NCBI GenBank assembly: GCA_000381625.1
Contig: KB906767.1
Coordinates: 500,729 to 564,728 of the forward strand
Origin: Bryobacterales bacterium KBS 96
GTDB taxonomy: Bacteria; Acidobacteriota; Terriglobia; Bryobacterales; Bryobacteraceae
Direction: 5' to 3'
DNA length: 64,000 nt
Below the pieces are notes generated by a model that was given only the letters and a program-made list of their open reading frames with translations, had not been told where the DNA came from and did no database searches. The translations under genes were made by a program, and so were the position numbers. Shown here piece after piece: positions 10,807-50,807 of the stretch; the stretch's first letter is position 1, and the number at the start of each line of letters is the position of its first letter.

Positions 10807-11142
10807 TTAGGCTGCACTCCGATTTTCATTGACAACGACCGGTTCGGACATTGTAACCAGCAAGAGACTGTCCGCCTCTCCGGAAAGCTTATGAGGTATC
10901 TCCGGCGGCAAACTAATCAGCAGTCCGGGTGTCAACTCGACTCGTTCCCCACCGGCAAAGAAGATGACATGACCTTGCAGGCACTGCACAGTGATGCCTC
11001 CGCGGTTTTGATGTTCCGGAATTTCCTCCCCCTTTCGCAGATGAAGTAATATGGCGCGCAGGCCGGTCTCACGCACGAGGGAAGTCGTTCGAGGCAGAGG
11101 GCCGGCATCGTTCAACAGTGGTTGCAGGTCGGTCAGCGTCAT
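10807..11142 (-). CDS. Small cupin-domain protein
   Basis: The 111-residue product is a single cupin: LLHLRKGEEIPEHQNRGGIT is motif 1 and LTPGLLISLPPEIPHKLSG is motif 2, with VQCLQGHVIFFAGGE between them. Metal ligands would be His in EHQ and His in PHK. I chose the ATG at 11142 because it overlaps the stop of the haemoglobin gene by 4 bases (ATGA), which indicates translational coupling. It would therefore be under the NsrR-type operator upstream of the haemoglobin gene. Its substrate is unknown; a nitrosative-stress role is inferred from context only. Confidence 0.75.
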   Translation of the reverse strand: MTLTDLQPLLNDAGPLPRTTSLVRETGLRAILLHLRKGEEIPEHQNRGGITVQCLQGHVIFFAGGERVELTPGLLISLPPEIPHKLSGEADSLLLVTMSEPVVVNENRSAA

Positions 11143-11549
11143 ACAGTCTCGGTCATTCTTTCGGATCTTTCGGCGACGCTCACCGGGTGATAGAGAGTAA
11201 TGGCCTGTAACAATCGTTGGCCGATCATTTCGGCTCTCTCGACGAACTGGTAAGCCACGTCCTGCGAACAGTGTTCCGCGGCCGTCTCCCGCCACAAGTC
11301 GAGCCAATGCTGGAAATGGACAACAGTCAAACGCGGCGGCAATTGAAGATGCGCCATCATCGGGCTTCCTTTGTACGTCCCGGAAGCGAGAAACACGGAC
11401 GACCAGAACGCCCGCATTTTGGCGAGATGCGGCTCCCAGTCGTCGCCGATAGCGTCGGTAAAGATCGAGCCGAGGAGAGAATCGTGCCGGATCTTTCCGT
11501 AGAACTCATTCACGAGCGTGGCGATGTCCTCTTCAGTCACAGTGGGCAT
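11139..11549 (-). CDS. Group III truncated haemoglobin
   Basis: The 136-residue protein matches group III truncated haemoglobins. It shows the FY pair at residues 16-17 (B9/B10), the segment HLAKMRAFWSSVFLASGTYK with KGSPMMAHLQLPPRL, and the proximal His78 in VVHFQHWLDLW. Members bind haem and oxygen or nitric oxide and are often tied to nitrosative stress, as in Campylobacter Ctb. The start ATG lies 18 bp from the divergent operator at 11567-11591. It is the first gene of a two-gene unit with the cupin. Confidence 0.88.
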   Translation of the reverse strand: MPTVTEEDIATLVNEFYGKIRHDSLLGSIFTDAIGDDWEPHLAKMRAFWSSVFLASGTYKGSPMMAHLQLPPRLTVVHFQHWLDLWRETAAEHCSQDVAYQFVERAEMIGQRLLQAITLYHPVSVAERSERMTETV

Positions 11550-11566
11550 GGAAGTAGTGAGCGTGC

Positions 11567-11591
11567 AAAGATATATTTATAATACATCTTT
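11567..11591. promoter_or_regulatory. NsrR-type operator in the haemoglobin/repressor divergent promoter
   Basis: A 25-bp near-palindrome has half sites AAAGATATATTT and TAATACATCTTT around a central A, and 10 of 12 positions pair. It closely follows the known NsrR consensus (AAGATGYATTT-N-AAATRCATCTT, 11-1-11). It contains TATAAT (11578-11583) as a -10 for the repressor gene and TATAAA on the other strand as a -10 for the haemoglobin gene, so one bound dimer could block both promoters. Confidence 0.75.
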
Positions 11592-11604
11592 ACCATTCGC
11601 ACTT

Positions 11605-12042
11605 ATGTATTTAACGAGCCATGCCGACTATACACTGCGCCTTTTGATTCATTTGGCGGTCCAACGTAACGAAACGGCGACCATCCAGGAGATTGCCGCC
11701 CACTATGGCATTTCACGAAATCATTTGATGAAGGTGGCGAACCAGGCCGTTCAGGAGGGCTACGTCAAAGCGGTGCGTGGGCGCATGGGCGGTCTCAGGT
11801 TGGCAATGAGTCCGCGGGAGATCAACATCGGGCGGGTGCTTCGTTCAGTGGAGGACTGGACCATGGTGGAGTGCTTCGACAAGTCCGGGAATTCTTGCCG
11901 GATTACGCGAGGCTGCGGGTTGCGGGGGATCTTAAAGGAAGCCCTGGACGCGTATTTTTCGGTGCTGGATAGTTATTCGCTAGCGGATGTCGTCCAGCGG
12001 AAAACGCTATTGGTCCAGTTGTTGGGGTTGAGGCCGGCGTAA
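11605..12042 (+). CDS. nsrR: Rrf2-family repressor, NsrR-like
   Basis: The 145-residue protein is a winged-helix Rrf2 regulator: YLTSHADYTLRLLIHLAVQ at the N-terminus, a recognition region HYGISRNHLMKVANQAVQEGY, and the wing VRGRMGGLRLAMSP. Three cysteines at 90, 98 and 104 (CX7CX5C) are placed like the Fe-S ligands of NsrR, which loses DNA binding when its cluster reacts with nitric oxide. I chose the ATG at 11605 because the Rrf2 fold begins there; longer starts would read through the operator. Divergence from a haemoglobin gene across an NsrR-like site supports the assignment over IscR or RsrR. Confidence 0.85.
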   Translation: MYLTSHADYTLRLLIHLAVQRNETATIQEIAAHYGISRNHLMKVANQAVQEGYVKAVRGRMGGLRLAMSPREINIGRVLRSVEDWTMVECFDKSGNSCRITRGCGLRGILKEALDAYFSVLDSYSLADVVQRKTLLVQLLGLRPA

Positions 12043-12084
12043 GCACATATCGAAGTGAGCGTATCTGCGGTACACTCAGAGCGA

Positions 12085-12456
12085 ATGAAGGGGATTGTCG
12101 CCGTAGTTCTGGTAGCGCTGTTTAGTTGGGCGCCGATCCTGCCTCTGTTCGCATCGGATTCCAATTCGCCTCTGCCGGCGTGCTGCCGCAAAGCCGGAAA
12201 GCATCATTGCGCGCAGCAATCGATGCATTCTCCGTCGCCGGATCGCGCAGCAAGCGTAGTTGCTCAGAAGTGTCCGTTGTTTCCGCATAACACTACGCCG
12301 GCGCACGTCGAAAGCTACACGCCTTCGGATTCGCTTACCCTTTTCGCCGGGCTGCTGAGCCACCCGGCGATTTCCGCGCAAGCCGAAGCCGGATATCGCA
12401 TCTCCTTTCATCGCTCCCGGCAAAAACGCGGCCCTCCAACTTTCCTCCCTATCTAG
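12085..12456 (+). CDS. Small exported His/Cys-rich protein, possible metal binder
   Basis: The ATG at 12085 gives 123 residues with a signal peptide (MKGIVAVVLVALFSWAPILPLFA). The mature part has a ligand-dense patch, PACCRKAGKHHCAQQSMH (Cys33, Cys34, His40, His41, Cys42, His48), and then KCPLFPH. This resembles small periplasmic copper- or zinc-binding proteins, but I recognise no named family. It lies 59 bp before a TonB-dependent receptor and 2.9 kb before an Asp-box protein with a CQCC motif. The three read the same way, which hints at shared metal-related work. Confidence 0.55.
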   Translation: MKGIVAVVLVALFSWAPILPLFASDSNSPLPACCRKAGKHHCAQQSMHSPSPDRAASVVAQKCPLFPHNTTPAHVESYTPSDSLTLFAGLLSHPAISAQAEAGYRISFHRSRQKRGPPTFLPI

Positions 12457-50121: not shown

Positions 50122-50297
50122 AAGAGCCGCCTTCCGTCCTGGTCCAATGTCCAGGTCTTCACGTTGGATTCGGCAGCATCGGACTTCGTAACAAGCCGTT
50201 TCATCTCTTCTGAGCTTTCGTGGACGGCGCGCCAGCTCACGTCGTTTTGGAAACAGAAGGACTTGCGGAGAGTCCACCTTGTGGAAGGACAAAGGAA

Positions 50298-50807
50298 ATG
50301 CCGGTTCTTGAAGAGATCTTAGTTGAACAGTTACAAGATTTGTTGCACGCGGAGGGTCAGCTCGTAAAGGCGCTGCCGAAAATGGCGCGCGCGGCAAACG
50401 ACCCTGGATTGAAAGATGCGTTCCAAAAGCATCTGGAAGAGACAAAAGGACATGTGGAGCGTTTGAAGCAGGCATTCGAACTGCTGGGCGCGAAAGCGAA
50501 GGCCAAGCCCTGCCGGGGAATGCAGGGGCTTGTGGAAGAGGGGCAAGAGACGATTGACCAAGGCAAGGAGAAGCCCGACGTTGCCGCGGATCTCGCATTG
50601 GCTGTGGCTGCACAAAAAGTAGAACATTACGAGATCGCCGGATACGGAAGTGTCCGAACCATCGCCGAGCAACTCGATCAGAAGAAGGTGGCGCGTCTTC
50701 TTGCCCAAACACTAGCGGAAGAGGAAAAAACAGACAAACTGCTGACCAAAATTTCCAGCCCTTTGCTGGAGGAAGCAAATCAGCCCGAGGAGGTGGAACA
50801 AACCTAG
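50298..50807 (+). CDS. Ferritin-like DUF892 (YciE-type) protein
   Basis: The ATG at 50298, preceded by GAAGGA, gives 169 residues with two ferritin-like four-helix halves: VLEEILVEQLQDLLHAEGQL near the start, AFQKHLEETKGHVERLKQAF, and AAQKVEHYEIAGYGSVRTIA with LAQTLAEEEKTDKLLTKISS. The Glu/His pairs (EEILVEQL, HLEETKGHVE, KVEHYE, EEEK) are dimetal ligands. Members are stress-induced and probably bind iron. It diverges from the DoxX gene by 176 bp. Confidence 0.92.
   Translation: MPVLEEILVEQLQDLLHAEGQLVKALPKMARAANDPGLKDAFQKHLEETKGHVERLKQAFELLGAKAKAKPCRGMQGLVEEGQETIDQGKEKPDVAADLALAVAAQKVEHYEIAGYGSVRTIAEQLDQKKVARLLAQTLAEEEKTDKLLTKISSPLLEEANQPEEVEQT

Follow-up and report, generated by a model that had tools for sequence, protein, structure and literature searches.

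NsrR regulons are known in Proteobacteria, Bacillus, and Streptomyces, and the consulted part of PMC1274295 describes an Rrf2 regulator, the palindrome gATGyAT-N5-ATrCATc, a globin gene as a target, and frequent clustering of nsrR with its target. The sole NsrR target given there for Legionella is glbN-lpg2536, which pairs a globin termed cyanoglobin with a hypothetical ferredoxin reductase. Cupins have been described in comparable settings. A Cupin-norB-nnrS2 operon of Sphingopyxis granuli is induced 4 to 18 fold in what is presumably the DETA-NO column (PMC6472365, seen in part), and the Thermus nsrR-nsrS-nsrT cluster encodes a Cupin_2 protein, NsrT, beside a regulator named NsrR (PMC5748679, seen in part). 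A figure legend of PMC10732223 has an entry for a Cupin domain with norB in gene clusters of Planctomycetota and KSB1 MAGs. Within a literature search that had subscription papers outside its scope, nothing was found that joins NsrR, a truncated hemoglobin, and a cupin, and neither the consulted parts of PMC9268430 and PMC10866078 nor any title found deals with an NsrR regulon of Acidobacteria.

The window analyzed here (64,000 nucleotides of the acidobacterium Bryobacterales bacterium KBS 96) holds a locus that shares with these regulons the Rrf2 regulator, the palindrome, the globin gene, and the clustering of nsrR with its target (Table 1). Unlike them, it has as its target a single-domain group III globin with a cupin rather than a flavohemoglobin, and its host belongs to the Acidobacteriota. 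It is like the Legionella pair in coupling a small heme globin to a partner gene, the partner being a cupin instead of a reductase. The Sphingopyxis operon also contains a cupin, in the same cupin-qNor order as plasmids of Tardibacter and Novosphingobium, but with an NO reductase as partner; the Thermus cluster likewise places a Cupin_2 gene beside its regulator, but with the operator CTTGACCNNGGTCATGG and a short ScdA protein as partner. Both likenesses are by description rather than by sequence.

We read the locus with good confidence as an autoregulated NsrR-type nitric oxide switch over nsrR and the trHb3-cupin operon. The Rrf2 dimer would hold an Fe-S cluster on Cys90, Cys98, and Cys104, probably together with Asp8 of the partner subunit, and, when bound to the palindrome in the short promoter region that the divergent units share, would repress both its own gene and the operon. 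Attack of NO on the cluster would release the dimer from the DNA and allow the globin and the cupin to be made. The globin would then oxidize or bind NO, and the cupin, a small and probably metal-binding protein (His44 and His84), might protect against or repair NO damage, which is the most conjectural step of all. Such a switch would extend the NsrR site and its globin target to the Acidobacteriota, the target here being a truncated globin of group III; in soil, members of this phylum meet NO from denitrifiers. The observations of an earlier note on this DNA were confirmed, and its interpretation is supported as far as sequence can tell.

Table 1. Features of the predicted nitric oxide switch in the window
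Feature	Position	Strand	Remarks
Divergent units	10807..12042	-/+	trHb3-cupin pair (-) and Rrf2 gene (+), 55-bp gap between them
Small Cupin_2 protein	10807..11142	-	111 aa; His44, His84, Cys54
Group III truncated hemoglobin (trHb3)	11139..11549	-	136 aa; family profile matches C. jejuni 2ig3
NsrR-type operator (predicted)	11567..11591	.	Near-palindrome AAAGATATATTT-A-TAATACATCTTT, in the gap; kept in congener G396
TATAAT inside operator	11578..11583	+	Possible -10 box of the regulator gene
nsrR-like Rrf2 regulator	11605..12042	+	145 aa; Asp8, Cys90, Cys98, Cys104

The stop codon of the globin gene overlaps the start codon of the cupin gene in a shared ATGA (11139-11142), as had been pointed out. 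The further claim that the operator covers the -10 boxes of both units holds for one side: the TATAAT, 21 bases ahead of the Rrf2 ATG, lies inside the operator on the plus strand, but the minus strand of the region offers only TATAAA-like letters. Scanning for promoters gave no complete sigma-70 match on the plus or the minus strand, and the TATAAT is therefore put forward only as a possible -10 box. The regulator gene is followed by a short frame with a Cys/His-rich stretch (window 12055-12456), whose part from 12094 to 12453 has no Pfam match at an E value of 0.001.

The regulator belongs to the Rrf2 family (Pfam, 116.8 bits against a cut-off of 30), and its best solved matches are two NsrR sequences of Streptomyces coelicolor (top E value, 8.4e-16). 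The top NCBIfam model is NsrR, at 126.1 bits and under its cut-off of 182, with RirA close behind at 119.1; the scope of the NsrR model (PRK11014) is presumably enterobacterial. Alignment with S. coelicolor NsrR places all three cysteines attributed to the protein in the cluster positions, and it also has Asp8. This residue is the fourth cluster ligand of S. coelicolor NsrR (PMC10510648 and PMC5411485, each seen in part), and RirA carries Asn8 in its place (PMC10510648). Asp8 and the three cysteines occur together in 35 of the 36 other aligned rows at an E value of 1e-20 or better; the remaining row, from Comamonas (L130), has Asp8 and shows gaps in the Cys columns. Outside these 36 rows, the pattern is also present in a second NsrR copy of the same genome and in the copy of the congener G396.

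That the protein is instead an iron sensor like RirA, or a different Fe-S/redox sensor, with the globin-cupin pair serving iron or oxygen homeostasis, is highly unlikely. The small difference between the two model scores would suit this reading, as would the spacing of the cysteines (X7/X5, compared with X4/X5 in Escherichia coli NsrR) and a title cited in PMC9686644, in which Campylobacter Ctb is “implicated in oxygen metabolism”. Asp8 at the position where RirA has Asn argues against it, as do the fit of the operator to the NsrR palindrome and the neighborhoods of homologues, which adjoin hmp, qNor, and nnrS genes, several with the same type of site. The protein clusters with the second copy and the G396 copy in a tree of 50 rows (support, 95/99); the wider branches are poorly resolved, no NsrR clade is resolved, and the tree is no proof of NsrR identity. 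The S. coelicolor matches, the top NCBIfam model, Asp8 with the three cysteines, and the co-occurrence of the site type with NsrR homologues in relatives nevertheless support the NsrR-type reading, and the protein is very probably an NsrR-type regulator with an NsrR regulon of the known kind.

The 25-bp operator is symmetric in 10 of its 12 base pairs and has a single mismatch to the published consensus (PMC1274295, seen in part), in keeping with the near-exact fit to the proteobacterial site noticed earlier. When a typed NsrR-type consensus was searched with up to three mismatches, the operator (two mismatches) was the sole place in the window, and 100 shuffles of the window gave none. By palindrome score the window has two places, of which the operator (22.5) is the better, and again none appeared in 100 shuffles; the other (AAGATGCGTTCCAAAAGCATCTG, 50413-50435, score 19.0) lies inside the coding frame 50220-50807 and is probably due to chance. 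Throughout the 6.69-Mb genome, the operator is the only noncoding place matching the typed pattern at up to three mismatches. The one other place, C1:1113448 (three mismatches), was rejected as a second operator, as it falls within a frame whose translation, judged by eye, resembles a response regulator. Three further places with scores of 19.0 to 19.5 were found in the own-genome stretches scored: L008 26 (19.0), L008 1501 (the same place as C1:1113448), and L098 6301. The 3.7-kb locus of the genome's own RIC gene (C1:4713701) has no palindrome, even at a threshold of 17.

The search of acidobacterial genomes that the earlier note had called for was run on 121 relatives with the pattern AAGATRYAT-N5-ATRYATCTT and at most one mismatch, an NsrR homologue being a match with an E value of 1e-20 or better. 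The pattern occurs in seven relatives, all seven of which encode an NsrR homologue, compared with 20 of the 121 overall (about 1e-6, hypergeometric by hand), and the reversed pattern occurs in none. Six of the nine distinct sites lie within 3 kb of nsrR; the remaining three are divided between G396 (two) and G403 (one, next to a ferredoxin frame and a gene for ScdA-hemerythrin). Palindromes with a score of 19 or more were found at 16 places in 15 of 25 regions (241,653 bases). Three of these regions (L100, L101, and L104) had been chosen for carrying the site, and the independent set of 22 regions around NsrR homologues has 13 places in 12 regions and none in the other 10. Chance as the origin of the palindrome is rejected on the shuffle sets (none in 20 for these regions), on the mirror and reversed-pattern controls (none in either), and on control cupin loci (0 of 28 with a place).

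The palindromes lie at nsrR, at hmp (L122), at trHb1-reductase operons (L115, L117, and L120), and at a gene for a fused 2-oxoacid dehydrogenase E1. Of the 30 trHb loci examined in the phylum, three have such a place, that of the window included. In one of the other two (L026/L125), the palindrome separates an nsrR-trHb gene set from a divergent cupin of only weak similarity. An NsrR-like frame occurs within 1.5 kb at four of the 30 loci. In five same-family relatives (L102, L107, L108, L110, and L112; 5 of the 25 regions), nsrR is divergent from the fused E1 gene, and a palindrome lies between the two or at the edge of the frame in four. The L107 product has Pfam E1_dh and transketolase domains, and the other four match it at >1,200 bits; it is a possible NO-controlled enzyme of central metabolism. 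A group I-like truncated globin and a Fer2-FAD-NAD reductase adjoin nsrR in L114, L115, L117, L119, and L120, and the reductase only in L113 and L116. The pair resembles a split flavohemoglobin, like Legionella glbN-lpg2536, and it is at its start that the palindrome lies in L115, L117, and L120.

G396, the one other genome of the genus found, keeps the trHb3-cupin pair, the ATGA overlap, and the palindrome. Its globin gene is preceded by AAAGATGTATCATTGATATATCTTT, in which 22 of 25 bases are as in the window, compared with 8 of the 13 bases immediately before it; 11 of the 12 pairs are symmetric, and one position has changed alike in both halves. A relative with the gene pair and without the operator, named in the earlier note as the finding that would count against it, was therefore not encountered, G396 being the sole relative found with the pair. 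The typed consensus missed this site at up to three mismatches because its central bases differ; the looser pattern matches it with none. The site occurs on two G396 contigs, the second of which is cut at its end, and this is taken as assembly redundancy. No nsrR lies beside the G396 pair, where the divergent frame reads by eye as ligase-like.

The last observation bears on the second NsrR copy of the genome (C1:4077620; L002 and L098), which is 63% identical to the first and has genes for a multicopper oxidase, a cytochrome c, and HlyD-type efflux downstream. Its locus has a palindrome (AACATGCATTCTAGGTGCATGTT, 19.0) at the start of the oxidase frame, and the typed consensus found no site there at up to three mismatches. 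Regulation of the trHb3-cupin operon by this copy, or by both copies jointly, is somewhat unlikely. G396 keeps the operator, yet its only close NsrR groups in the tree with the second copy, and only weaker palindromes occur at second copies (in the genome itself, that of 19.0 at the gene that follows; in G396, one of 18.5 just ahead of nsrR). Against this, the copy in the window lies right next to the operator, and G396 is 88% complete in approximately 320 contigs and may therefore lack an nsrR copy in its assembly.

The globin is a group III truncated hemoglobin, as stated at the outset: its family profile matches 2ig3 (Campylobacter jejuni Ctb) with an E value of 7e-33, far ahead of the next structure, 2bkm (1.7e-6). 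Unlike the window globin, C. jejuni Ctb is regulated by the Crp-family protein NssR and, to our knowledge, has no cupin partner. All 10 aligned members share Y17, H41, H67, and W82, and we take the heme-pocket residues of trHb3 (proximal His, TyrB10, and TrpG8) to be among them. The genome encodes one trHb3 and one RIC homologue; one qNor probe found no match, and one Hmp probe matched in the reductase part only, each a single probe and weak evidence. In the phylum, 47 trHb matches were found in 43 of 396 genomes. A cupin frame is nearby in 3 of the 30 loci examined, the window's included, and a general trHb3-cupin adjacency, for which a check across genomes had been suggested, is thus rejected for this phylum.

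The closest relative of the cupin is found in a Bryobacteraceae MAG (L143, 80% identical) and the closest outside the genus in a Terriglobia MAG (51%), where qNor is divergent and the frame just ahead of the cupin reads by eye as Crp/Fnr. By family profile, the best solved relative is 3fjs (Reut_B4087; E value, 3e-35), which is also the best fold match; 3fjs is uncharacterized and therefore gives no function for the cupin. The AlphaFold2 model is confident and mostly strand (pLDDT, 91.5). Canonical metal cupins have an HxH...E motif and a motif 2 His. The window protein has His44 and His84 only, with Asn46 and Ile50 at the second His and Glu positions (by hand), and a canonical metal cupin was rejected on this incomplete HxH...E. 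All 81 cupins compared have His44, and 79 of the 81 have His84; these two positions were free of the scan pattern, which itself imposed G48, I50, Q/H53, C54, L55, and G57.

Scanning with an eight-member alignment kept 80 of 221 cupin relatives, and 19 probes were used for their neighborhoods (cNor and Nir lay outside the set, and the NarG probe was in the wrong frame and uninformative), on which all NO gene counts depend. A probed NO gene lies within 1.5 kb in 31 of the 80 relatives, within 3 kb in 32, and within 6 kb in 33, and because the count barely rises with distance, the association, where present, is immediate. The 31 loci include the congener, three weak or partial matches (L146, L154, and L185), and several close kin. 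By kind, the genes within 1.5 kb are qNor (19), RIC (6), Hmp (4), trHb3 (3), NsrR (3), hemerythrin (2), and NnrS (1); trHb3 is within 6 kb in 5 of 80 (L143, L148, L173, L188, and L222). Weaker cupin hits in the relatives, viewed within 1.5 kb as a control, have an NO gene in 2 of 28, one being the gene used as the hemerythrin probe and the other a partial Hmp match.

That the cupin is a passenger, cotranscribed and without a part in NO defense, is unlikely. None of the probed NO genes lies within 6 kb at 47 of the 80 loci, six of which (L145, L150, L160, L162, L165, and L203) by eye lie among other genes, and the congener's cupin frame is broken near its start (L101 5026-5367): the ATGA start and first codons are out of frame with the rest, through either an assembly error or a real frameshift. 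Against a passenger stand the 31 loci with an immediate NO gene and just 2 more at 1.5 to 6 kb, the recurrence with trHb3, qNor, or NsrR across three phyla (Acidobacteriota, Planctomycetota, and Pseudomonadota), and the NO-induced cupin of Sphingopyxis. Overall, the locus is very probably an NsrR regulon of the known kind, in which the cupin is a recurrent and so far unexplained element. The proposal of the cupin as a new member of the NO regulon is only partly new, since the cupin-norB-nnrS2 operon was already reported as NO induced (PMC6472365), with the Thermus cluster as a further precedent (PMC5748679; both seen in part).

This uncharacterized family, marked by G-x-I-T-[VL]-[QH]-C-L-x-G, His44, and His84, crosses phyla: in at least three of them, its members are repeatedly found next to genes for trHb3, qNor, Hmp, NnrS, and RIC. 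We suggest tentatively, and at less than even likelihood, that part of it is a dedicated component of NO defense that works with trHb3, qNor, or Hmp as present, for example, as a nonheme metal protein acting on NO, nitrite, or damaged iron. Its control would differ with the lineage, lying with NsrR in some and with a Crp/Fnr-type protein elsewhere. As the family already has a solved structure, a role in NO defense is directly testable.

Homologues of the cupin were found in 27 plasmid records, of which 12 were looked at. On a Comamonas antarctica plasmid, trHb3-nnrS-Rrf2 and the cupin (37.5% identical) are arranged divergently, and the stretch between them contains AAGATATATAAATAATATACCTT, which differs from the window operator in 4 of 23 bases. 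Plasmids of Tardibacter and Novosphingobium have the order Rrf2, cupin, and qNor, with a small hypothetical gene between Rrf2 and cupin in Novosphingobium; palindromes scoring 19 lie ahead of Rrf2 in both, and Tardibacter has a second of 18. In Sphingobium TKS, Rrf2 is divergent from trHb3-DUF1971-hmpA, with a palindrome of 18, and the cupin lies 3.4 kb past the globin with a gene annotated as cbb3-type oxidase subunit I, which we suspect to be qNor. The cupin of a Paraburkholderia fungorum plasmid also has an NO context (NnrS, hemerythrin, and nar), as does that of Ciceribacter, which adjoins an NsrR-like frame in an unannotated record. No NO context was seen at the plasmid cupins of Burkholderia, two Deinococcus, Synechocystis, and Nostoc, and nitrate reductase is near that of Curtobacterium. 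On three sphingomonad plasmids (L131, L135, and L139), trHb3 is followed, with a short overlap, by DUF1971 in the place that the cupin has in the window, and the Tardibacter DUF1971 protein matches the TehB structures 3m70 and 3dl3.
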